Source: a virus
Virus record (IMG/VR): IMGVR_UViG_3300030101_002780
Coordinates: 1-31,092 of that record
Reading direction: 5' to 3' (one strand)
DNA length: 31,092 bases
The notes below the pieces were generated by a model that was given only the letters and a program-made list of their open reading frames with translations, was not told the origin of the DNA and ran no database searches. Numbering within the stretch: the stretch's first letter is position 1; every line of letters starts with the position of its first letter. The position numbers and the translations under genes were made by a program. This document shows positions 748-27,376 of the stretch, piece by piece.

Positions 748-3678
748 TTAAATTTTCAAGCCCACTCCTTGAGCCTGATAATCAAAAGTCTTGTTAATAA
801 TACTATTACTACTATTTTTAAATACAATGTCAAACCCTGTTTTTGATTTGTTGCTTATCACAAAGAAGTCTCCTGAAGATAAATCTTGTCCTGTGACTGT
901 AATATTTGGTGTTTGAAAAAATGCATTTGTGTATGATATTGATTTTGTTGATGTTCCTGAAGCCACATCATCTCCTGTCTCTGATCTTTTTTCTAACACT
1001 AATTTTGCCTGTAATCCTGTTATTATAGGTCTAGCATTATTATTTGATGATGTTAAAACTGTTCTAAATTTAAAAAATCTTCCTTTAAAAGTTCCTTGTT
1101 GTGATATTGTAGAAAAGCTAGTTATATTGGCCAAACTTGTGTCATCTGCACCTATTTGAATTATTGCAGAATTATTAGTTGGTGCGTTTCCATCAAAAGG
1201 TGCTTTTGCATTATCGAATAAAGAAGCACCTCTTCCTGAATCAAATAAATCGTATGGGTCTCCTGACTCCATAGTTATTTGTATTTGAAAGGTTGCATCA
1301 TAAATTGCATCCAAAGAAAAAGTGTTGTCAAACAGATAATTTCCTGATCCTGTTATATTATTTGCAAGTCCTCCTGTATCAAATAAAAAACCACTTGTGT
1401 CTGCATCATCAAAATCTCCTGACCTTGCATCAAATAAAGTTAATGTATCTAATGTTATTGCTGGTGTTCCATTGCTATCTTCTGTTTTAAAAGTGTTTGT
1501 AAAAGTTCCAGCAAAGGCAGTTTCTTCATTTGCAGTTGATATGTCCTTAAATGATTGCAAAGCAGAAACATTAGAATTTATAATTGCAGGATTAGCAGAT
1601 TCATTTCCTAATTTATCTACTGCTTTTATATACAAACTATAAGGTGGTTTTATTGCATTGATTGTGACACTGTTAGATTTTCTTCTTGGGACTTGAACCA
1701 GATTAGTTGTATTAAACCAAGCAGTTGACCCTGATCCCATTGAGTATCTTATTTCATAAAACTCAATATCTAAATCAGAAACAGGAGTCCATGATAGTTG
1801 CATTTGGTTTGAACCAACCATAGAAATATTAAAATCAGAAACATCTGAAGGAGTGTCTGTTGCACCAACTACAAATCTAGTAGCAGAAACAAAAGTTGAT
1901 CTAACATTAAGAGCATTTTTTGCCCTTACTCTAACTTGATAAGTTGCACCATCAATTACATTTAACACTTGATAATCTCTTGTTTTTCCTTCTCCAACTA
2001 AAACAAAATCTTTAGTCACTGCATTTCCATCTTTGTCTAAAGTTTGTTTTACTTGCACTTCATAACCCTCAACAAATCTGTCAGGAGATGCACCCACAGT
2101 TATTAACAATCTTGTTAAGACAGTTCCATCTGAATATTCAATAAGATCATCGTCTAAAGTAACACTTGCTGGTGGAGAAATAGAAAAAGGATTAGGTAAA
2201 TTAGTTGTTGGAATTGAAGGTTGAACTGTTTTAGATGCCCATGAATATATATTATCTTGATGTTCTATTAAAGATAACCCCATTGTAAAATCTTGATTAA
2301 AAGTTGCTCCTAAAACTCTAAATGCTTTTGCAGAAAACCCTAAAGTACTGTGAGTTATATTCACAATATCTCCTATAGATAAATCGTAGGCTTTGGCACT
2401 TGCATTTAAAGTTAATTTTTTAGCTTGTCTTGATCTTCTTAATATAATTTCTGCCATTTCCTCTGCTTGATAAGGTGAGGTTAAAGTTTTAAAATCAAAT
2501 CTTCCCTCTAATAAAAAACCTCCATCCTCTGTTTTCATTGTTGCGTGTTTATCAGCAGTGGCATATCCACTGTCATCAATTGCTGGATATTGAACTTGAT
2601 CGACTTGAAAGTTACGATCAGGGTTCACAAAACTTGCTATCACTCTGTTATATTTGTTATTTTTATTTTCACTTTCTAATTTTATTCCACCAAATATATC
2701 ATCTTCAGTTAAAGATATTGATGCTGACCCTGTTGTTTCAATAATTAATTTATATTTTCCAGCAGTGTAAGGTAAAAAACCTCTGCATCCTTGTATTAAT
2801 TCTCTAATATTATCTATTACCTTTTTTGATGTATCAAGCACTGCATTTGTGTCAAATATATTTATATCACTTCCTCCTGAATAAGGTGTGACTTGAGTTA
2901 TACAAACTTGTGATGCGTCTCTGAAACTTTGCAAATCAATATCAGCAGTTGCTATACCTTTTCCATACCTTTCATTTCTTAAATAATCTAAAATACAAAA
3001 CGCTGGATTGGTTGAATATGTCGGAGAAGATTCATTTAAACTTGCATCTAAAGTAACTATTTTTTTTCCTTGAACTTTTGCTTGTACTTTTGGAATTGAA
3101 GAGAATGCATCTTGATTCCAAGTAAATCTTAAAGCTAAATAAGAAAGTCCTGATAATTTATGATTTGATGTCCAGCTTGATAATGTTGATAATAAACTTG
3201 ATGCAGATTGTCCATCAGTACCAAAATGAGGCTCAATTGTTATTAATGATTCTGCACTAGAATTTTCGTCATTTGGATCTGCTTTAAAAAAATTAGTATC
3301 ACTTGAGGCCACAGTTCTTTGAGTATTATCAGCCATAGCTCCTGAAAATGTCACTACTTTATCATCGACTCTAATTTCGCTTATTGCATTTATTTCTCCT
3401 TCTGACATTACTAAAGCAACATATAAATATCTGTTATCTGTTCCTGAAGTTTCTATAAAGACTCTTGTTCCTCCAACCAGTCTTTCTCCATAAACTATTG
3501 GTATAGATGCATCATTTGATTGTTTGTTAACTAATATTCCTTTTTCAGATTGGTCAAACTCATCATCTCCAAAGTCAGGAATATCTGGTATATCAATTAA
3601 CCAACCGATAACCTTTTCAACAATGTCCATCACAAAGTCTATGGCATCATCAATTAAATCAAGGGGATTTGGACACAT
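748..3678 (-). CDS. Tail tip / host-specificity protein (lambda J-like)
   Basis: The largest gene, 976 residues. Residues ~55-75 (IPIVYGERLVGGTRVFIE) match the conserved entry of J-like central tip proteins. The middle (~200-480) is tip-scaffold-like. Two fibronectin type III-like segments lie at about 495-690 (one contains YEVQV...TYQVRVRAKNA, the next LSWTPVSDLDIEFYEIRYS). The region at ~735-830 holds recurring LFD motifs, and the C-terminus (~890-976) is a beta-rich module ending near FDYQAQGVG, likely host-contacting. Located at the end of the tail module as in lambda-like phages. Two bases separate it from the upstream GNAT gene. Expected to form the trimeric tip that contacts the receptor and opens the tail. 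Confidence 0.85.
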   Translation of the reverse strand: MCPNPLDLIDDAIDFVMDIVEKVIGWLIDIPDIPDFGDDEFDQSEKGILVNKQSNDASIPIVYGERLVGGTRVFIETSGTDNRYLYVALVMSEGEINAISEIRVDDKVVTFSGAMADNTQRTVASSDTNFFKADPNDENSSAESLITIEPHFGTDGQSASSLLSTLSSWTSNHKLSGLSYLALRFTWNQDAFSSIPKVQAKVQGKKIVTLDASLNESSPTYSTNPAFCILDYLRNERYGKGIATADIDLQSFRDASQVCITQVTPYSGGSDINIFDTNAVLDTSKKVIDNIRELIQGCRGFLPYTAGKYKLIIETTGSASISLTEDDIFGGIKLESENKNNKYNRVIASFVNPDRNFQVDQVQYPAIDDSGYATADKHATMKTEDGGFLLEGRFDFKTLTSPYQAEEMAEIILRRSRQAKKLTLNASAKAYDLSIGDIVNITHSTLGFSAKAFRVLGATFNQDFTMGLSLIEHQDNIYSWASKTVQPSIPTTNLPNPFSISPPASVTLDDDLIEYSDGTVLTRLLITVGASPDRFVEGYEVQVKQTLDKDGNAVTKDFVLVGEGKTRDYQVLNVIDGATYQVRVRAKNALNVRSTFVSATRFVVGATDTPSDVSDFNISMVGSNQMQLSWTPVSDLDIEFYEIRYSMGSGSTAWFNTTNLVQVPRRKSNSVTINAIKPPYSLYIKAVDKLGNESANPAIINSNVSALQSFKDISTANEETAFAGTFTNTFKTEDSNGTPAITLDTLTLFDARSGDFDDADTSGFLFDTGGLANNITGSGNYLFDNTFSLDAIYDATFQIQITMESGDPYDLFDSGRGASLFDNAKAPFDGNAPTNNSAIIQIGADDTSLANITSFSTISQQGTFKGRFFKFRTVLTSSNNNARPIITGLQAKLVLEKRSETGDDVASGTSTKSISYTNAFFQTPNITVTGQDLSSGDFFVISNKSKTGFDIVFKNSSNSIINKTFDYQAQGVGLKI

Positions 3679-3680
3679 AA

Positions 3681-4136
3681 TTATAACCTTTTTGTAAATA
3701 CATTTCCTATTGTTTCGAATTTTAAGAAATTATAAAGTTTTTCTACTTTAGCTGATTTAATTCCTACACTAGATCCAGGTCTGAATTCTTTACAACCTTT
3801 TTCTCTTGCCCAATCTGTTGAAGCATTAATAAGTCTAATAGGAACTCTAATACTTTTTCTTTTTTCAGGAGTAACATATAACAATAAATCAAAACAAAAT
3901 AAATCATCTCCAAAAAAATATTTACTTAAATGAACAATCATCATTCCAATTACTAAATCATCTTCTACTGCAACAAAGCCCATAGCTTTTTCTGGTTTAT
4001 CAATTAGAACATCTGCAAATCTTTTTAACTTTTCTCTGCTGTAAGATAGATTTTGATAAGCACCTTCTTTGTGCATCTTATCTCCAAGTTCTATCATTTG
4101 TGGAAAATCTTTTCTTTGCCATTGTCTTATTTGCAT
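3681..4136 (-). CDS. GNAT-family N-acetyltransferase-like protein in the tail-tip operon
   Basis: A 151-residue protein with a GNAT-like arrangement: N-terminal MQIRQWQRKDFPQMIEL, a central beta segment (FVAVEDDLVIGMMIVHL, ~54-70), a strand FDLLLYVTPEKRKS (~84-97) and an RK-rich acetyl-CoA pyrophosphate-loop-like segment ahead of a helix. The canonical Q/R-x-x-G-x-G/A loop is degenerate. Start and upstream stop overlap as TAATG, so translation is coupled to the tip gene at 4136-4702. GNAT-like genes between tail-tip genes recur in marine phages, but their substrate is unknown. It could modify a tail or host protein, or a small molecule. Confidence 0.7.
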   Translation of the reverse strand: MQIRQWQRKDFPQMIELGDKMHKEGAYQNLSYSREKLKRFADVLIDKPEKAMGFVAVEDDLVIGMMIVHLSKYFFGDDLFCFDLLLYVTPEKRKSIRVPIRLINASTDWAREKGCKEFRPGSSVGIKSAKVEKLYNFLKFETIGNVFTKRL

Positions 4137-4702
4137 TATTCTCTACCCCATTTTATATCTTGAACAGTTAAAGCTGAAAATTCCATCCCTTTATCTGTTG
4201 AAAAAAATTTTTGTTGAGAGTTAGGATTTGTTTTTCTACCTGACTTTTTATCAAAATCTGCCCAATGAGACACAATTGTGTAAATAATATCTGTTTCTTT
4301 ATCTGATTCAGTAATCTCGTATTTATCAATTTGACCATCATATAATAAAAAAGGGTCTGCAATTAAAGTGTTGCTATCACTTAACATCCCTCTGAAAATT
4401 TTAACAGGATCATTCACAACATTTTCAGCTAAAGTTATTGATATAAATGTTTGATTAACTCCTGATATTCCTAACCTTAAAGAAGACCTTGTTATTCCTA
4501 CTTCTTCTGTGAATTGAGAGACATTTTGTAAAAAAGCAGTTGGAGTGTAAGTTGTGGAACTTCCTGATATTGAGCTTGTCAATTCAAACGAACAATCTGT
4601 TATATTTTGAGGAGATGAAAAACCAAACGTTATAAGATGAACAGGCCTTAATATATTAGTCGCTAGTTGGTTTTTTAGTGCTGTTGTTAAGGCTCTCGTC
4701 AT
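4136..4702 (-). CDS. Tail tip / baseplate hub-like protein (DUF2163-like)
   Basis: A 188-residue protein. The N-terminus (MTRALTTALKNQLATNILRP) followed by a region about 'LHLITFGFSS...YTPTAFLQNVSQFTEEVGI' and a motif about an applied displacement (NVVNDPVKIFRGMLSD, then DGQIDKYEI) resembles DUF2163 / lambda gpL-type tip proteins, which link the distal tail to the J-like protein. It lies between a distal-tail protein and the GNAT and J genes, the expected position. The start overlaps the 3' end of the 75-aa gene by 47 bases. Assignment rests on motif pattern and synteny. Confidence 0.65.
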   Translation of the reverse strand: MTRALTTALKNQLATNILRPVHLITFGFSSPQNITDCSFELTSSISGSSTTYTPTAFLQNVSQFTEEVGITRSSLRLGISGVNQTFISITLAENVVNDPVKIFRGMLSDSNTLIADPFLLYDGQIDKYEITESDKETDIIYTIVSHWADFDKKSGRKTNPNSQQKFFSTDKGMEFSALTVQDIKWGRE

Positions 4703-4883
4703 ATTTTTCGTAAGTTGTTCTGTTTATTTTCTCACTTCCTTTTATCATAACATAACTGAAACTGCTATCAGGAGTTTTATATTGCTTTAAATCATTTTTA
4801 ACAATATTAATTTCAGATTCATCAACCACTTTTTCTACTATAAAATCAGCATTAATCCAATGCTTAATCAGGTATTTAGCCAT
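4656..4883 (-). CDS. Small tail-module protein, unknown function
   Basis: A 75-residue protein (MAKYLIKHWINADFIVEKVV...), charged and probably alpha/beta, with no signal peptide, membrane segment or catalytic motif. It is coupled to the upstream distal-tail gene by a TAATG overlap at 4883 and overlaps the downstream tip gene by 47 bases. Its position between the distal tail protein and the tip protein suggests an assembly or tip component. I do not recognise a family. Confidence 0.55.
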   Translation of the reverse strand: MAKYLIKHWINADFIVEKVVDESEINIVKNDLKQYKTPDSSFSYVMIKGSEKINRTTYEKYDESLNNSTKKPTSD

Positions 4884-5503
4884 TATAATGCTTCTTCAAC
4901 ATCCAATTCAAATTTATATAAAATATTTCCATCTTTATCAGCACCTACTTGTCCAAATTCTTGCATATCATTTAAAAGATAAACTGTGAATGGCACATTG
5001 TTATAAGTTATTGCTTCGTTATTTGCTAAAGCATTTCTTAATGGTGGCTCGATAGTTATTGTACTTTCATTTGATGAACTCGTCACATCTGAAACAATCA
5101 TATAAACTTTGTCGTGACTAGCAAATTTAATCACATCTCCAGCTTTTAAAACACCTGACGCATTTGAAGAATGTCCATCAATGTCGATTGTTGTGTCCCC
5201 AGCTGTGTGAACTCCATTAACTAATAAAGTTCCTGTTTCTGTTCCTCGTGTAGATGAAATTTCAGGTGGAACTATTGTAAAGTTTTCCTTTCCTGATCTT
5301 TGTTTAATAATAAAAGACATAAGTTCTCCATAAATATCTGATCTTTTTCCAGTTATTATATTTGCAGTGAAACCAAATTTTTGACCATCAATTTGTCGTG
5401 ATAACTTTTTTCCATTAATTGATTTAGATATTAAAGTTTTTTGTATAGTTTTAATTGATGCTACTTGAAATTTAGAATTACTTATTGGGAATGCACCTGA
5501 CAT
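4883..5503 (-). CDS. Minor / distal tail protein
   Basis: A 206-residue protein immediately downstream of the tape measure gene, coupled by TAATG at 5503. The N-terminus (FPISNSKFQVASIKTIQKTL) followed by a beta-rich DGQKFGFTANI segment resembles lambda gpM/distal-tail-like proteins that form the collar between tube and tip. An inserted segment at ~95-175 (GTLLVNGVHTAGDTTIDIDG...AGDVIKFA) looks like a small beta-barrel insertion. Role follows from the conserved order tape measure, distal tail, tip, J. Family-level naming is uncertain. Confidence 0.65.
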   Translation of the reverse strand: MSGAFPISNSKFQVASIKTIQKTLISKSINGKKLSRQIDGQKFGFTANIITGKRSDIYGELMSFIIKQRSGKENFTIVPPEISSTRGTETGTLLVNGVHTAGDTTIDIDGHSSNASGVLKAGDVIKFASHDKVYMIVSDVTSSSNESTITIEPPLRNALANNEAITYNNVPFTVYLLNDMQEFGQVGADKDGNILYKFELDVEEAL

Positions 5504-7437
5504 TAAATTAAAGCCTCCCTACCTCTTTCATTTACTGACTCGTTTATTATTCTAGATATTGTTCCTCTTCTTGCAACTAATAATTCATCAAAACCTCTTG
5601 CATCAACTGTTGTTATATTAAAGTTAACTGTAGTTGATCCTCCTGAAGTTCCTCTTGCATTTTGAGTTATTTGTCCTGTTTGGTTTGGTACAAACAATTC
5701 TGGCCCTTTTTCTCCAACAATAACTGGTTGACCTTTTGATACTGCACCACCCTTATGAAAGAAAGGAAGTCCACCTCCTCCACCTCCACCCATAGCCATT
5801 AAAACTGCTTGAAGTGCAATCTGTCTTTTTAATGATCTTTCAATGTTATGGTTGGTTGTCAATTCATCTTTTTTAAATTTATTTAATATTTTTTGCTGAA
5901 TAATAAACTGAATAAAAGTTGCTAACACTTCTATTAATATTCTTTGTGCAATTTGTTTCATAGTGTTTTCTAAATCTTTACCTAAAACAATTGACTCTGC
6001 AATTCCTTTTGAGAGACTTTTTATTCCTCCAACTATTCCTTTTGCAATAGTTTGGTTTATATTTTCAAAATCTTTTTTAATAATATCAAGAACACCCTCA
6101 CCAATTTTTGTTAATTCTACACCTAAATTTTTAGTTTCTTCAGTTGAACCTTTTAGCTTATTAAGGAGTTCCTCAACTTGTTTTTTTGAAATTAATGCTT
6201 TTGCTTCTAAAGTGTCTAAAAACTTTCTTAAATTACCAATATTAACATTTGTTGCATCTGCAGTGTTTTCTAATTCTTTTTTCAAATCTGATATTGGTTT
6301 TCTAAGTCTTTCAGAAATTGCTAATAAATCTTCATTTTGTTTTTGTATTTTTTCAAAACCTTCCTTGCTTACAAGTTTTAAACTTCTTCTTGTCTCTAAT
6401 ATTTTTTGATTAAATTCTGCAAATTGTTGTAAAAATTCTCCTAGCTTAAATCTTATCTCATCTAAAAATCCACCAATTGCTAAGACTAATAATTTACCTT
6501 TTCCTCCCAACATTAAAAAACCAATTATTCCAAAAGTTCTTATAGTTTCAGGTAGTGTTTGTAGAAAATCAAATAAGTTTCCAATTGAACTAAAAACAAA
6601 TGAAAAAACAGGCTTAATAGCTTGTATAATAACTGCTGATCCAATTATTATCTCTTTAGTTGCTTTTATAAGTCCATCACTTAAACTTTTTCCAACAGAT
6701 GCTAAAACTTCAGAGTTATCCTCTATTAATTTATTAACCTCAACTAAACCTTGTTTAACAAAATCAAAAAACCCAGCTTGAGCTGTTTCTAATCTAAACT
6801 TAAATAATTTATCAGAAAGCATTGACAATGTTCCAGCAAGTGTTGTTGATAACACTTCTGTTGCTTTTTCAAATTCTCCACCTTTACCAAACAATTCTCT
6901 GAATCTTTTTTTAGTTTCTTCTACTGTCACTGTTGCACCAGCTTTAAATCCTAATAAGGCTCGAACACCTCTTTCTCTAAATAAGTCAGCTGATCCAATA
7001 CCTGAAGAGAATGACCTTTGTATTTGTTCAGCAGTAGTTCTAAAATCAAGTCCTGTTACAGATGCCACGTTTCCTGTTAATTCTAATATTTCTTTTAACT
7101 CTTCTGCATTTTTTGTGACAACTGCTAAGTTTCCAGCACCAGCTTGTATTTCTTCCAAAGAGAAAGGAACTTTAGATGCAAAGTCTATTAATCCTTGAAA
7201 GGCCTTGTCTCCCTCTTGGACTCCTTTAAATAAAAAAGCAAATCTTAATCTTAATTGCTCTACAGTTGATCCAACATTCAATATTGATTTAATTGCAAGT
7301 CCACCACCAATTCCAATGATGGCTGATTGAACAGAAAATACTGCACTTCTTAAATTTGTAAGTCCAGCTCTAACACCAGCAAAGGCTTGTTTAGTTTTAT
7401 CCTTTGCTAATATATTAAGTACTAAATTCTGTGCCAT
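5503..7437 (-). CDS. Tail tape measure protein
   Basis: A 644-residue protein directly after the tail assembly chaperone. The N-terminal ~230 residues contain helical segments typical of tape measures (FRTTAEQIQRSFSSGIGSAD). Hydrophobic stretches lie at ~265-330. The ~350-440 part is coiled coil. The C-terminus carries the characteristic HKGGAVSKGQPVIVGEKGPE...FVPNQTGQI pattern after a run of seven glycines (~550-556). Using the usual ~0.15 nm per residue, a tail of roughly 95-100 nm would be expected. ATG overlaps the frameshift-product stop (TAATG at 7437). Position and C-terminal motif make the call strong. Confidence 0.9.
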   Translation of the reverse strand: MAQNLVLNILAKDKTKQAFAGVRAGLTNLRSAVFSVQSAIIGIGGGLAIKSILNVGSTVEQLRLRFAFLFKGVQEGDKAFQGLIDFASKVPFSLEEIQAGAGNLAVVTKNAEELKEILELTGNVASVTGLDFRTTAEQIQRSFSSGIGSADLFRERGVRALLGFKAGATVTVEETKKRFRELFGKGGEFEKATEVLSTTLAGTLSMLSDKLFKFRLETAQAGFFDFVKQGLVEVNKLIEDNSEVLASVGKSLSDGLIKATKEIIIGSAVIIQAIKPVFSFVFSSIGNLFDFLQTLPETIRTFGIIGFLMLGGKGKLLVLAIGGFLDEIRFKLGEFLQQFAEFNQKILETRRSLKLVSKEGFEKIQKQNEDLLAISERLRKPISDLKKELENTADATNVNIGNLRKFLDTLEAKALISKKQVEELLNKLKGSTEETKNLGVELTKIGEGVLDIIKKDFENINQTIAKGIVGGIKSLSKGIAESIVLGKDLENTMKQIAQRILIEVLATFIQFIIQQKILNKFKKDELTTNHNIERSLKRQIALQAVLMAMGGGGGGGLPFFHKGGAVSKGQPVIVGEKGPELFVPNQTGQITQNARGTSGGSTTVNFNITTVDARGFDELLVARRGTISRIINESVNERGREALI

Positions 7438-7945
7438 TATCTGTGCCTTGATTTATTCATAGCTTGTTGTTGCTCTTCTTGTTCTAATAAAAGATAGCCT
7501 AACCAATGGTTATATTCCCATATTTCCATTTGTAAAACATCTTGTAAAGATATTTTTAACCTATCAGCTACAATAAAACAATTTTTAAATTCAGGATCAG
7601 ATTTTAGTTTTTTTTTACTTCTTCAGGATTGATAGCTTTTACCATCTCGGTTGCTATCCTTGAAAGGACATCAGAATCTACTTTGTGCATCAAAGCTAAT
7701 TTATCTTCTAAAGTAAATAATTTATTGCCATCTTTATCTAGTCCTTTCATAACTAGAATATCAGCAAGAATACTTACATCATTAAGATTATCTGACTTTT
7801 TAAAAAGTTTATTTTTTTCAGATAGGGTTATAGGATTCCAATAAATAACACTAGGATTTCCAGCCTCGTCTTTCCATTCCTCCACCTCTAAATGTTGAAC
7901 ACCTAAAGATTCAAAATGAGATTTTGCAGAGTCTATTAACTTCAT
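7437..7945 (-). CDS. Tail assembly chaperone, -1 frameshift product (gpGT-like)
   Basis: The zero-frame chaperone (7945-7607) shifts -1 at A AAA AAC. The base at 7607 is then re-read as the first base of CTA, and the frame stays open for 56 codons to a TAA at 7439-7437 that overlaps the tape-measure ATG (TAATG). The product is 113+56 = 169 residues. The added part includes DVLQMEIWEYNHWLGYLLLE and a Q-rich end, resembling the C-terminal T-domain of lambda-type chaperones, where a W-rich helix follows the linker. The open frame fills exactly the 7437-7604 gap, which has no other gene. By analogy with lambda, the longer form recruits tail tube subunits to the tape measure. Confidence 0.8.
7604..7945 (-). 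CDS. Tail assembly chaperone, zero-frame product (lambda gpG-like)
   Basis: A 113-residue protein between the major tail protein and the tape measure gene. It is mostly helical after a beta N-terminus (VQHLEVEEWKDEAGNPSVIYW). Such proteins coat the tape measure during tail tube assembly. The last codons (GTA AAA AAA AAC TAA) contain a slippery heptamer, and a -1 shift there opens a second domain (see the entry at 7437-7945). ATG start. The zero-frame product should be the major form if the site works as in other tailed phages. Confidence 0.8.
   Translation of the reverse strand: MKLIDSAKSHFESLGVQHLEVEEWKDEAGNPSVIYWNPITLSEKNKLFKKSDNLNDVSILADILVMKGLDKDGNKLFTLEDKLALMHKVDSDVLSRIATEMVKAINPEEVKKN
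7607..7613 (-). promoter_or_regulatory. Programmed -1 ribosomal frameshift site (A AAA AAC)
   Basis: On the minus strand the zero-frame codons GTA AAA AAA AAC TAA contain the heptamer A AAA AAC, a known efficient X XXY YYZ slippery sequence, at the extreme 3' end of the chaperone gene and directly ahead of its stop. Nine A residues in a row (7608-7616) could also promote transcriptional slippage. I did not identify a strong downstream pseudoknot by eye. Confidence 0.75.
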
Positions 7946-7954
7946 AAAGTCTTA

Positions 7955-8341
7955 TTAGACAGTACCTCGAGTTAATGCTCCTGTGCCTTGAAATGTAACT
8001 GATCTAGTAACTACTGCATCCATTCCATTTGTAACTGACATTCCTGTAACAATTCCTGATCCACTAAAACTTTCATCTCCTGACGTGTCTCCTTCAGGTA
8101 ATAAGATAAAAGCAATAGAACTTCCAACTGTTAAAGTTTGTTGTGGGGAGTCAGTTTCATCGTAGTTCATGTCTAATGATCCACTAAATGAAGTTCTCCC
8201 AGCTACGAATGATTTTGTTGCATCAGATAATTCTGTATCTTCTACAACATCAGCAGTAGTTTCAAGTGTGAATCCAGATAGTTCGCCTATCGCAGTTCCA
8301 CCAGCTTTAACTACACCTTCTTTTCCGTGATGTGTTGCCAT
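7955..8341 (-). CDS. Major tail (tube) protein
   Basis: A 128-residue, beta-rich acidic protein (MATHHGKEGVVKAGGTAIGE...) immediately upstream of the tail assembly chaperone. It has the TSFSGSLDMNYDETD and GIVTGMSVTNGMDAVVTRSVTFQGTG segments typical of short siphovirus tube proteins: strands with a late VTRSVTFQGTG strand like other small major tail proteins. Its length is typical for the compact family. The first bases overlap the 3' end of the 53-aa gene at 8311-8472. It should be made in many copies to form the tail tube. Confidence 0.8.
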   Translation of the reverse strand: MATHHGKEGVVKAGGTAIGELSGFTLETTADVVEDTELSDATKSFVAGRTSFSGSLDMNYDETDSPQQTLTVGSSIAFILLPEGDTSGDESFSGSGIVTGMSVTNGMDAVVTRSVTFQGTGALTRGTV

Positions 8342-8472
8342 TTGCTATCCTTCTTTGGTTGTGGTTTATTTTCTTTTTCTCGTTTATAGCCAAGTTCTAA
8401 AAAATTATCAAGCTGTGTTTCGTTGATAATTACTTCGTGACCATCTTTGTATAATTTTATATCTTTTGCCAT
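8311..8472 (-). CDS. Small head-tail region protein, 53 aa
   Basis: ATG at 8472, stop TAG at 8313-8311, overlapping the start of the major tail gene by 31 bases. The N-terminus (MAKDIKLYKDGHEVIINE, then QLDNFLELGY) resembles that of the 66-aa gene at 10169-10369 (IKLTNGTKTITRS...MRGY), and both end in lysine-rich tails. Short proteins with a KxxxxDG/NG turn followed by a helix ending in GY are frequent in phage head-tail regions. Function unknown. Its reading frame is clean and fills the gap between 8341 and 8472. Confidence 0.6.
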   Translation of the reverse strand: MAKDIKLYKDGHEVIINETQLDNFLELGYKREKENKPQPKKDSKWQHITEKKV

Positions 8473-8486
8473 AAATCCTTTTACTA

Positions 8487-8660
8487 TTATTCCTCGTTCT
8501 CGTCAATATCTTCATCTTCCCAATCATTATCTTCTTCATCATCAACCACATTGTCTTCATCATATTCTCTGTGGTTATCGACAAGTTCTCTAATATCTTG
8601 AGTCAACTCTTCAATTTTATCTAATTTTTTATCTATCTTATCTAAATTTTTATCAGCCAT
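8487..8660 (-). CDS. Small acidic coiled-coil protein, 57 aa
   Basis: An ATG at 8660 (a second in-frame ATG at 8663 is also possible) opens 57 codons ending at TAA 8489-8487. The first half is a KLDKI/ELTQDI heptad-like helix. The second half is almost entirely Asp/Glu/Asn (EDEDIDENEE end). AGGAT lies just upstream. It lies between the tail terminator-like gene and the 53-aa gene. No known family. The strongly acidic tail may bind basic virion proteins or act in assembly (inference). Confidence 0.6.
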   Translation of the reverse strand: MADKNLDKIDKKLDKIEELTQDIRELVDNHREYDEDNVVDDEEDNDWEDEDIDENEE

Positions 8661-8668
8661 CATTTATC

Positions 8669-9106
8669 CTATGGGGTTGCACTATCGTGTTCATAAATAA
8701 CTCTGACTACCATACTGATAGCACCATATGGAAAGAGTGTACCAGCATCAGTTTCTAAAGATATAACCTCTGTGTCTAATGCTTTGTTGTTTCTAGTTAT
8801 ATCAGTTTCAAGAGCTGTTTCAATGGCACTTGCTAAATTATTTCTTGCAGTATCTATATTATCTTCACTACCTTTCACATATCCTGTTATTAAAAATTCT
8901 AAATTATTTATTCTAGTTTTTGCACCACTTCCAAGTTCGGAGTCCTCTTTTGTTTCCTCTTGGGTTTGTACTAAAACTGCTGGATATTGTGATTGAGCTA
9001 ATTCCTCTAAATTAAAAGGTTGACGTGTTACCTTTCTCACTGCTGGACTTGATATATTAGTAATTGTGGTTGTAATATGACTTGCTATATCTTCTCGTTT
9101 ACTCAT
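8669..9106 (-). CDS. Tail terminator / tail completion protein (gpU-like)
   Basis: A 145-residue protein. The N-terminal helix MSKREDIASHITTTITN, the segment YPAVLVQTQEE and the C-terminal strand ISMVVRVIYEHD match the general plan of tail terminator proteins (N-terminal helix, central sheet, final strand with R-V-x-Y). It sits between the head-tail connector genes and the major tail gene, the standard place for gpU-type proteins that cap the tail and join it to the head. The start overlaps the upstream gene's stop (9103-9106). Confidence 0.65.
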   Translation of the reverse strand: MSKREDIASHITTTITNISSPAVRKVTRQPFNLEELAQSQYPAVLVQTQEETKEDSELGSGAKTRINNLEFLITGYVKGSEDNIDTARNNLASAIETALETDITRNNKALDTEVISLETDAGTLFPYGAISMVVRVIYEHDSATP

Positions 9107-9561
9107 ATCTTCATCCTTTTAATTTCTTTTTTCATAAATTGTTCAAATGTTCTTTTTATTAATTTTTCTGTTTTTAAGTTATATGCAAAGAATTTTCTAA
9201 CAGGAAGTTTACCTTCGCCTTCATTATGCCACAATGCTTTTTTTGCCTCTGTTTGACTTCTGAAAAATACTTGTGCTTTATTTTTATTTCTTATTTTTGA
9301 GTCAATTGATTGTAGCATTCTGTTTGTGTCTTGAAGATTAACAACTGTCTTACCTTTCTCTTCAGCATATTGAGGACTGTAAGGAACAAATTTTCTTTTA
9401 TTAAAATCTAAACCTTTGTCAGTTCTTGTGATAATTATTTCTTTTAATTGTACTCCAGCTTGTTCTAAACCCTTTGTGACAATATTTGGAAACCTTTTAA
9501 AAAATTTATTAAATCGTTTTCTTACGATTGGCAGATTAGATGTGACTCTTCCACTTAACAT
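9103..9561 (-). CDS. Head-tail joining / tail completion protein (HK97 gp10-like)
   Basis: A 152-residue, very basic protein. It has an N-terminal helical region (IVRKRFNKFFKRFPNIVTKG) followed by QVQLKEIIITRTDKG-like text, and a central VNLQDTNRMLQSI segment where HK97 gp10/phage virion-morphogenesis proteins carry the 'L-x-D-T-G-x-L' motif. The WHNEGEGKLPVRKFF segment corresponds to the 'HQ-G-x-x-R-F' motif of that family. Placed between connector and tail terminator, and coupled by TAATG at 9561. Confidence 0.75.
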   Translation of the reverse strand: MLSGRVTSNLPIVRKRFNKFFKRFPNIVTKGLEQAGVQLKEIIITRTDKGLDFNKRKFVPYSPQYAEEKGKTVVNLQDTNRMLQSIDSKIRNKNKAQVFFRSQTEAKKALWHNEGEGKLPVRKFFAYNLKTEKLIKRTFEQFMKKEIKRMKI

Positions 9562-10049: not shown

Positions 10050-10172
10050 CTACTTCCAAATTAAATATGCAATAATTAAAACTAAAGGTATTGAGTACAT
10101 TGGATTATTTTTTGCTTTAACCCATGCCCACTTTGACCATTTCTTTGCTTTCATCATTATAATTTTGTTCAT
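10050..10172 (-). CDS. Tiny single-pass membrane or tail protein, 40 aa
   Basis: ATG at 10172 overlaps the upstream stop (ATGA at 10172-10169), stop TAG at 10052-10050. The product has a basic, Trp-rich N-terminus (KAKKWSKWAWVKAKNNP) followed by a hydrophobic stretch (YSIPLVLIIAYLIWK), predicting an N-in single-pass membrane peptide. It occupies the gap between the capsid-associated small gene and the adaptor gene. Function unknown. Confidence 0.55.
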   Translation of the reverse strand: MNKIIMMKAKKWSKWAWVKAKNNPMYSIPLVLIIAYLIWK

Positions 10173-10369
10173 TTCTTTTTCCTTGTTTTTTTCTTTTTTG
10201 GTTTTAATTCAACCACTTTATCAGAAATATCTTTTACTGTCGTTTTTTTTATTTCTTTTTTCACAGAATCAACAGGAGTATATCCTCTCATTTTAAAATG
10301 ATTAAGGTTTGCTTCATATTGCTCTTTTGATCTTGTTATGGTTTTTGTTCCATTTGTTAATTTTATCAT
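10169..10369 (-). CDS. Small lysine-rich capsid-adjacent protein, 66 aa
   Basis: The N-terminal half (MIKLTNGTKTITRSKEQYEA, then MRGYTPVDS) is globular, followed by a strongly basic tail ending in KKKKTRKKK. It is the first gene after the major capsid gene, separated by a strong hairpin at 10386-10413, and has AAGGAG upstream of its ATG. The N-terminal pattern resembles that of the 53-aa gene at 8311-8472. A head-internal DNA-contacting or head-completion role is possible (inference from location and charge). Confidence 0.6.
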   Translation of the reverse strand: MIKLTNGTKTITRSKEQYEANLNHFKMRGYTPVDSVKKEIKKTTVKDISDKVVELKPKKKKTRKKK

Positions 10370-17705: not shown

Positions 17706-18071
17706 TTACACTTCTTCTGCTTTTGCGTCTATAATTAAAGGCAAAGGCTCAATAATAGATTCTGTTTGAGTCCTATCTTTAAATCCTAGATAATTTTTAC
17801 TTAACCATATTTGCATATTGGTGTTATCTTTTTTAATTGCTTTGTCCCACATCTTTTTTCTTAAAGATGCCTTTCCTTTCTCTTTAGATTGTTCAATTAA
17901 ATCGGCATAATTCCTTTTTAATGTTCTTGCAGATACTCCAAGCACACTTGCTATCTCATAATCAGGACACCCAATAGATGCTAGGTTTTTTAATATTTCA
18001 ACATCTATAATTATTTTAGGTCTACCCTTGTTCTTTTTCTGTTCTTTTGTATTTGCCTTATTTTTGTCCAT
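17706..18071 (-). CDS. Terminase small subunit (HTH)
   Basis: 121 residues from ATG at 18071 (TTG at 18077 also in frame). N-terminal basic arm with GRPKIIID, then an HTH: LKNLASIGCPDYEIASVLGV and SARTLKRNYADLIEQ. C-terminal half KGKASLRKKMWDKAIKKDNT, then MQIWLSKNYLGFKD, the hallmark of HTH small terminases that recognise packaging sites and recruit the large subunit. Large subunit gene lies ~2 kb downstream with small genes between. Overlaps the end of the methyltransferase gene by 14 bases. Confidence 0.8.
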   Translation of the reverse strand: MDKNKANTKEQKKNKGRPKIIIDVEILKNLASIGCPDYEIASVLGVSARTLKRNYADLIEQSKEKGKASLRKKMWDKAIKKDNTNMQIWLSKNYLGFKDRTQTESIIEPLPLIIDAKAEEV

Positions 18072-19269
18072 TTTCAAGTACTGCCTTATTTCCTGTCCAC
18101 TCTTCCCATCTTTTTACAATTACATCACAAAATTTAGGGTCAAGTTCTATTGTATAACACGATCTGTTTAATTTTTCACAAGCAATCATTGTGCTACCTG
18201 ATCCTCCAAAAGGCTCGTAGACAATATCTTCTTCTTTAGAACTGTTCTTAACTGCCTTAACGACTAATTCAACAGGCTTCATAGTTGGATGCAATTCTGA
18301 TCTTTTAGGTCTATTAAACTCCCACACAGATGATTGTTTCCTATCTCCATAATATATATGAGAACTGCCCTCAAACCATCCATAAAAAATAGGCTCGTGA
18401 ATATAATGATAATCAGATCTTCCTAAAACAAAGGTGTCTTTTTTCCATATAATATTACAAGAATGGTGCAAACCAGCTTTATTGAAAGCCTTTAAAACTT
18501 GCAAAGAGTTCCTTTCTCCAAAACATATATAAACAGGAGAGCCTTGTTTTGTTATATTTTTTGCCGATAATAAAAAATTTTCAAGAAACATCTCAAATTG
18601 GTCATCAGACATATTATCATTTTTAATATCTCTTCTTTTATTTGGATCGTGATCAACACTTCTTGTCCACCAACCATAATTAACATTATAAGGTGGATCA
18701 GTGAATATCATATCAGCTTTATTATCATTAAATAATTTTTTAGATATTTCTTCTTTTGTACTGTCCCCACATATAAGTTTATGTTTTCCAAGTATCCATA
18801 TATCTCCAAGTTTTGTTATTGGCTCTTCAGGTGCTTCAGGTACTGCATCATCTTCTGTTTCTCCTTGTTTTTCCTCAAATAATATTTTATTTAATTCGTT
18901 ATCATCCATCCCTGTAAGGTTTAAATCAAAGTCTTTATCGTTTAACTCTTTTATTTCAGTTTCAAGTAATTCATAATCCCACTCGGCTTCTTCATTAGTT
19001 CTGTTATCAGCAATTCTGTAAGCATTAATTTTTTCAGGACTTAATTTATCTGCAATAAGTACAGGCACTTCTTTATAACCTAAAGTTTTAGATGCTTGAT
19101 ACCTTGTGTGGCCAACAACAATAATTTTATCTTTATCAACGACAATTGGTTGTTGGAAACCATACTCTTTTAATGACATAGCAACTTTATCAATTGCTTT
19201 TTTAGATAACTTTCTAGGGTTATTTGGATAGGGTTTAATATCCTCAATTTTTAACAATTCAATGTTCAT
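18058..19269 (-). CDS. ParB-like domain / DNA N6-adenine methyltransferase fusion
   Basis: 403 residues. N-terminal ParB/Spo0J-like domain (KIEDIKPYPNNPRKLSKKAI ... VGHTRYQASKTLGY at ~52-65), linker, then methyltransferase with catalytic DPPY at 191-194 and SAM-binding FGGSGS at 354-359, followed by TIELDPKFCD. DPPY before FxGxG is the beta class arrangement, with the target-recognition region in the ~210-330 interval. Likely methylates adenine in phage DNA for protection from host restriction or for packaging or replication control. No matching endonuclease is seen nearby. Target site unknown. AAGGAT upstream of ATG. Confidence 0.88.
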   Translation of the reverse strand: MNIELLKIEDIKPYPNNPRKLSKKAIDKVAMSLKEYGFQQPIVVDKDKIIVVGHTRYQASKTLGYKEVPVLIADKLSPEKINAYRIADNRTNEEAEWDYELLETEIKELNDKDFDLNLTGMDDNELNKILFEEKQGETEDDAVPEAPEEPITKLGDIWILGKHKLICGDSTKEEISKKLFNDNKADMIFTDPPYNVNYGWWTRSVDHDPNKRRDIKNDNMSDDQFEMFLENFLLSAKNITKQGSPVYICFGERNSLQVLKAFNKAGLHHSCNIIWKKDTFVLGRSDYHYIHEPIFYGWFEGSSHIYYGDRKQSSVWEFNRPKRSELHPTMKPVELVVKAVKNSSKEEDIVYEPFGGSGSTMIACEKLNRSCYTIELDPKFCDVIVKRWEEWTGNKAVLENGQK

Positions 19270-26678: not shown

Positions 26679-27376
26679 ACGAGTTTTTTTATCCAATCTC
26701 CATTATTATTAAGTACCATAGGGAGTAATCTAGGTACACCATTTAATATAATTCCACAACCCAAAATAAACCTTGTTTTAAAATTCTTGGCATAGTTGAA
26801 GGCCATAGACTTCTGATTAATTAAACACCCAACATTCATTGCAAAGAATAAGTTATCAGGGTTTGCCCAATAGCTTATCAAAAACTTGGTGTGATAATGG
26901 CCTTGTACTGCCGACATACCCATAGTTTGCGATACCTTTAATATATCTGCTGACCTTCCATGAGTAAAAAAGCATCTTTTTCCATCTGACATTGTGAGAG
27001 TTAAATCATCAACCCATCTCCATTTTCTAGTTCCTAAAAATTCTCCATATGGTTTAAGAAATGCTTTTGACATTCCAAATTTTAAGGCTCGTCTATAAAC
27101 TAAACTACTATGATTAGAGTCCACTTCTACAACTTCAGGAAATATATCTTCTAATTGTTTTATATATTCTTTTGCTTTATCTAACTCGTGTCCAGCAGAA
27201 TACAAATCAGGATTGTGTTCGTGCATTGATATTGCGTGAAAATCTAACAGATCTCCAATATTAACAATCATATCAGGTTTAAATTGTTTTTTTATTTCTT
27301 TTAAAAATATTATGGAATCCTTATGTTGATAAGGCAGATGCATATCGCTGATAATTAAGATTTTTTTATTAGCCAT
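26675..27376 (-). CDS. Calcineurin-like metallophosphoesterase
   Basis: 233 residues with all metal-ligand motifs of the family: D11-M-H13 (ISDMHLPYQH), G41-D42 (IVNIGDLLDFH), N88-H89 (VEVDSNHSSL), H139 (FFTHGRS) and G159-H160-Y-H162 (VQGHYHTKFL). Likely a phosphodiesterase acting on nucleic acid or nucleotides. The substrate is not predictable. A hairpin (27373-27389) includes the ATG. It stands between the basic mini-protein cluster and DUF3310. Confidence 0.85.
   Translation of the reverse strand: MANKKILIISDMHLPYQHKDSIIFLKEIKKQFKPDMIVNIGDLLDFHAISMHEHNPDLYSAGHELDKAKEYIKQLEDIFPEVVEVDSNHSSLVYRRALKFGMSKAFLKPYGEFLGTRKWRWVDDLTLTMSDGKRCFFTHGRSADILKVSQTMGMSAVQGHYHTKFLISYWANPDNLFFAMNVGCLINQKSMAFNYAKNFKTRFILGCGIILNGVPRLLPMVLNNNGDWIKKLV

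Follow-up and report, generated by a model that had tools for sequence, protein, structure and literature searches.

A predicted -1 frameshifted tail assembly chaperone in a pelagiphage-related virus and the divergence of shift signals among its homologues

A virus related to marine Pelagibacter phages carries, within a siphovirus-type tail module, a gene (7945..7604, minus strand) that we take, with a probability of about 85%, to encode a G-type tail assembly chaperone from which a longer GT form is predicted to arise by a -1 slip at the heptamer A AAA AAC. The homology of the locus to tail assembly chaperones, the conservation of its shifted frame and the selection on its slip site are direct observations. 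A frameshifted G/GT tail chaperone is a long-known phenomenon of long-tailed phages; what is new, besides an annotation gap and a predicted long tail in named relatives, is that homologous lineages differ in their shift signals and that one of them, to judge from its junction sequences, probably shifts by +1. The window, by which we mean the whole stretch of DNA analysed, spans 31,092 nucleotides and belongs to a virus record of 32,962 bases (IMG/VR IMGVR_UViG_3300030101_002780).

Results

The tail genes of the window are read from the minus strand in the order Neck1-like protein, terminator, tube, the 113-aa chaperone gene, tape measure, distal tail, minor tail and J-like protein. The genes surrounding the chaperone locus are:

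748..3678, minus strand: central tail fibre J-like protein with fn3 (phrog_31, E 1.4e-75; Pfam fn3)
4136..4702, minus strand: tail protein in the minor-tail-L position (phrog_2048 tail protein, E 1.4e-27)
4883..5503, minus strand: distal tail protein (phrog_1302, E 1.1e-24)
5503..7437, minus strand: tape measure protein, 644 aa (Pfam TMP_3, E 5.8e-11; phrog_973)
7955..8341, minus strand: major tail (tube) protein, 128 aa (phrog_1407, E 5.5e-12)
8669..9106, minus strand: tail terminator, 145 aa (phrog_4204, E 6e-10; Pfam Phage_tail_terminator_7, E 1.2e-7)
9103..9561, minus strand: tail completion/Neck1-like protein (phrog_26, E 9.5e-8)

In HTVC202P and HTVC112P a gene in the minor-tail-L position carries the annotation minor tail protein L. 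An acetyltransferase gene (3681-4136; phrog_1249, E 1.4e-23) lies within the tail operon, between the minor tail and J-like genes. Elsewhere in the window, 18058-19269 encodes a 403-aa protein whose translation, judged by eye, has a ParB-like N-terminal and a DNA-methyltransferase-like C-terminal part.

Between the tube and tape measure genes, the chaperone locus is made up of the following elements:

7604..7945, minus strand: G, putative zero-frame tail assembly chaperone, 113 aa plus TAA (phrog_344, E 7e-4; AlphaFold fold nearest 2OB9)
7437..7607, minus strand: T, 56-codon -1 extension plus TAA (open in 83/83 close relatives; profile match to HK97 gp14)
7437..7945, minus strand: GT, predicted 169-aa fusion (phrog_16513 tail assembly chaperone, E 1.1e-8)
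7607..7613, minus strand: slippery heptamer A AAA AAC (invariant; last base C in 67/67)
7610..7616, minus strand: second heptamer A AAA AAA, overlapping the first inside the A9 run (third base of Val110 always A)
7603..7618, minus strand: invariant 16-nt block GTAAAAAAAAACTAAA, slip site plus stop (66 distinct sequences)

The 113-aa gene ends in GTA AAA AAA AAC TAA, with a run of nine A at 7616..7608 and the stop at 7606..7604. Read in the -1 frame from 7607, exactly 56 codons are open before a TAA at 7439..7437 that overlaps the tape measure ATG (7437) by a single base, giving TAATG. It was on these features that a preliminary description of the sequence had built its proposal of a 169-aa fusion, and the heptamer (7613..7607), the length of the open frame, the overlap and the arithmetic of the predicted fusion all stand. 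Just upstream the -1 frame is closed by a TGA, so that it opens only 16 nt before the zero-frame stop, and between this TGA and the conserved core it holds no ATG, GTG or TTG; a shift within the A-run is thus the only evident entry into the extension.

A screen of the gene ends of the window for in-frame XXXYYYZ heptamers whose -1 frame stays open far beyond the stop found three, the chaperone included. At the gene end of 10169-10369 an A AAA AAG (10199) is followed by a 47-codon -1 extension; HTVC026P lacks this site, its next small gene starting normally with an overlapping ATGA, and ordinary coupling is more likely here than a second frameshift. The third heptamer, at 26690, was rejected since its -1 frame merely overlaps the next gene.

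Close relatives of the locus, hereafter lineage A, number 83, comprising 80 homologues from a scan of viral contigs together with HTVC026P (92% identical to the window), HTVC202P (78%) and one Pelagibacter bin (93%). GTAAAAAAAAAC TAA is retained in all 83, along with an extension whose length varies between 52 and 56 codons; wherever the sequence reaches far enough to tell, this extension stops at the tape measure start or a few bases away from it. In every one of the 83 the other two frames of the extension region contain at least three and at least five stops. A slippery site near the end of G is thus followed throughout by an open shifted frame leading towards the tape measure gene; the preliminary description had named lack of conservation of this gap in relatives as one part of what would tell against its proposal, and the gap is conserved. 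Across 508 nt and 66 distinct sequences GTAAAAAAAAACTAAA is the longest invariant run (16 nt, vs 8 nt for the next longest), and the slip blocks of HTVC026P and HTVC202P are identical to that of the window. The dN/dS is about 0.07 for G and about 0.23 for the extension in its -1 frame. Over hundreds of relatives, including those of the lineages described below, slip site and extension are conserved, although the sequences in these and the following site counts are related and the counts are not independent events.

The identity of G and T was assessed by family, fold and profile comparison. Residues 3-152 of the fusion match phrog_16513, a tail assembly chaperone family, at E 1.1e-8 as against 0.0034 for G alone, so that including the extension strengthens the match to a family in which the T part is represented; the match of G alone to the tail assembly chaperones of phrog_344 is weak. 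AlphaFold models, whose alignments were built without rows from phage records, give G as a hairpin-plus-helices fold (pLDDT 77) and T as helical (pLDDT 89). Among solved structures Foldseek ranked the HK97 tail assembly chaperone 2OB9 first for the G model (probability 1.00, E 0.012, TM 0.56-0.60), and both models match one annotated tail assembly chaperone, that of Rhodobacter phage RcRhea, the T match being weak (E 0.13). Searched against 708 six-frame ORFs from the window and the lambda and HK97 tail regions, a T profile gave significant matches solely to the extension of the window and to HK97 gp14 (E 6.7e-9), with lambda T at a non-significant E 2.1; a profile made without lineage A still recovered the extension of the window at 2.9e-18, and hhalign aligned the extension with the T domain of HK97 gp14 at a probability of 95%. 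The locus therefore combines a position between tube and tape measure genes, a G domain related to chaperones by family and fold, and a T domain homologous to a known one. No sequence match of G to HK97 gp13 or lambda G was found, nor any match of G in the PDB by sequence; Pfam returned no model above cut-off for G or T, the sub-threshold hits being implausible, and the PDB sequence matches of T (designed repeat proteins and other implausible ones) are probably compositional.

The likeness of the extension to T domains of the gpGT type, claimed in the preliminary description, thus holds for HK97, and identification as a tail assembly chaperone draws support from gene order, family and fold matches, T homology, conservation and the silent-site constraint described below. 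Its Trp-rich helix fared less well: T is helical in the AlphaFold model, but it has only two tryptophans, of which the second alone (in NHWLGY) is invariant across lineages.

Several known systems invite comparison. In HK97 the gp13/gp14 gene likewise lies between tube and tape measure with a homologous T in the -1 frame, and its structure 2OB9 is nearest to the G fold; it differs in a T extension of about 95 aa rather than 56, in its shift site, in a G part without detectable sequence likeness and in an additional small gene, gp15, that precedes the tape measure gene. Lambda gpG/gpGT resembles the locus in its position before the tape measure gene, a -1 shift near the end of G and a C-terminal T extension, but neither G nor T matches significantly in sequence, lambda T is 144 aa as annotated, and the lambda slip site is G-rich. 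In HTVC026P, HTVC202P, HTVC112P and HTVC111P both G and T have homologues, and the gene order is unchanged, the latter two phages differing in an A AAA AAG heptamer and belonging to a lineage that mostly has an upstream GAGG. Roseobacter phages CRP-811 and CRP-821 and Sinorhizobium phage phi3LM21 have homologous chaperones whose T follows A AAA AAC in the -1 frame, though with A6 or A7 in place of A9; the CRP lineage keeps the upstream GAGG, and in phi3LM21 the slip site lies one codon before the stop.

Three further lineages were found from HTVC112P (B), Roseobacter phage CRP-821 (C) and marine virus AG-345-A17 (D). The T frame is -1 in 82/82 B loci and in 80 of the 82 C loci and +1 in 79 of the 81 D loci, while the four exceptions (two in C, two in D) are contigs truncated within T. 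The final Lys codon of lineage B is AAG in 65/65, against 19% of Lys codons there, and a change at this base is not silent in the -1 frame. Lineage C has A AAA AAC with the last C kept in 66/66, while the two bases before the heptamer are free (GAA, GCA, ACA, TTA or GTA) and the A-run goes down to six. Because the A-runs of these Roseobacter-phage relatives reach no more than A6 or A7, what is shared is the heptamer rather than a long homopolymer. At an upstream Glu site a GAG codon that creates GAGG is used in 54/59 sequences of B (35% elsewhere), 63/64 of C (45%) and all of D (9%); Shine-Dalgarno stimulation of both -1 and +1 shifts is known (PMC5009743), and the GAGG would on this pattern act as a shift stimulator in these three lineages. 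Lineage A has GAA at the matching Glu in 51/57, and a search upstream of its slip site for GAGG or another Shine-Dalgarno-like stimulator found none. Nor was RNA structure found downstream of the site in lineage A (z -0.35 for the window, mean z -0.15, consensus -0.6 kcal/mol), leaving a structural stimulator there without support; in lineage B structure is no more than mild (mean z -1.66). Scanning the window for Rfam families and tRNAs returned nothing.

In lineage D (the AG-345-A17 type; L088:2911-3448 and L251-L330) T is in the +1 frame and the junction reads TTR AAA AGN. The TTR closes the +1 frame, as TRA, just before the AAA, with a conserved GAGGCTAAAGCC upstream. This junction fits a slip by +1, probably on AAA A.

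Discussion

The silent-site constraint in lineage A and the comparison between lineages make -1 ribosomal frameshifting the most likely route to the fusion. The last base of the heptamer is C in 67/67 distinct sequences and never T, although replacing it by T would change the amino acid in neither frame (AAC/AAT for Asn, CTA/TTA for Leu) and although the gene elsewhere in this lineage uses AAT in 380 of its 454 Asn codons (84%) and the extension prefers TTA for Leu. Such a constraint favours slippage by the ribosome over slippage during transcription, as a polymerase should be indifferent to the base after the run. The C kept in lineage C, where a T would be equally silent, and the AAG of lineage B likewise point to selection at the level of decoding. 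The preliminary description had allowed for the latter, in which the polymerase would add one A at the A9 run so that GT is encoded in frame, or both mechanisms would contribute. The run on which it relied is indeed present and invariant in lineage A; it is the longest homopolymer in the genes of the window and lies at the frame junction with the roughly nine or more A or T of slippage of the Thermus dnaX type, a length described in review as efficient in bacteria (PMC5009743). In E. coli, moreover, A AAA AAC promotes shifting less strongly than A AAA AAG does (PMC5009743), and lineage A is without the GAGG of its cousins. Val110, whose third base lies outside A AAA AAC, is GTA in every distinct sequence of lineage A, against 55% GTA among the other Val codons of the gene. 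This constraint may, however, come from the overlapping heptamer A AAA AAA as well as from polymerase slippage, the two explaining it equally well, and the homologues manage with runs of A6 or A7. Transcriptional slippage, alone or as a contributor, we accordingly regard as unlikely.

Ribosomal frameshifting has also to be set against readings in which no fusion is made. A small independent gene for T, started inside or near G, might be imagined in a short region between two genes, but it would want a start codon, and the stretch from the closing TGA to the conserved core contains none of the usual three; the -1 frame moreover opens exactly around the slip site, and the same domain is annotated in HK97 as a -1 frameshift product. 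We consider such a gene very improbable and reject a start of its own for T. That G is the sole product and the open frame arose by chance is scarcely credible: a single long -1 frame could occur in AT-rich DNA, but the frame is kept under purifying selection in 83/83 close relatives, and three other lineages have homologous T domains in shifted frames.

By frameshifting at A AAA AAC, most ribosomes would terminate at the TAA (7606..7604) and release the 113-aa G, while a minority would slip back by one base with their tRNAs on the Lys and Asn codons, bypass the stop and add the 56 residues of T to give the 169-aa GT. In lambda the G part binds the tape measure and the T part the tail tube subunit, both proteins are absent from the virion, and the ratio of G to GT is about 30:1 (PMC5009743). 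Carried over by analogy with lambda and HK97, the G part here would coat the tape measure protein and the T domain would recruit tail-tube subunits, with the efficiency of slipping setting the ratio of the two forms.

The presence together of G/GT, tape measure, distal tail and terminator genes leads to the prediction of a long non-contractile tail; at about 1.5 angstrom per residue the 644-aa tape measure would correspond to a flexible tail near 100 nm. A published count of 40 cultivated pelagiphages has 37 podophages and a single siphophage (PMC10504331). The siphovirus-type tail module (748-9561) sits in relatives that are named with the podovirus suffix P, and its gene content predicts long tails in phages whose names mark them as podophages; electron microscopy of HTVC026P was looked for and none was found in the papers searched.

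A wider picture may be offered tentatively, and as a whole we hold it to be rather unlikely. The pelagiphage lineage would have dropped the Shine-Dalgarno-like stimulator of its cousins, the G:GT ratio being set instead by A9 with its two overlapping heptamers and by polymerase slippage; the chaperone of homologous marine phages would have switched its site, its stimulator and its direction, from -1 to +1; and 'podophages' of the HTVC026P and HTVC111P type would build long tails.

In the GenBank records of HTVC026P, HTVC202P, HTVC112P and HTVC111P the T extension is unannotated. Hypothetical genes lie antisense over it on the minus strand in two of them, gp41 of HTVC112P (L083:3406-3552) and gp45 of HTVC111P (L084:3406-3558), and both are probably spurious. 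The locus described here thus corrects the annotation of tail genes in marine Pelagibacter phages. At the same time the four homologous lineages provide a natural series of shift signals suited to measuring what each element contributes: A9 with A AAA AAC, GAGG with A AAA AAG, GAGG with A AAA AAC, and a probable +1 site.
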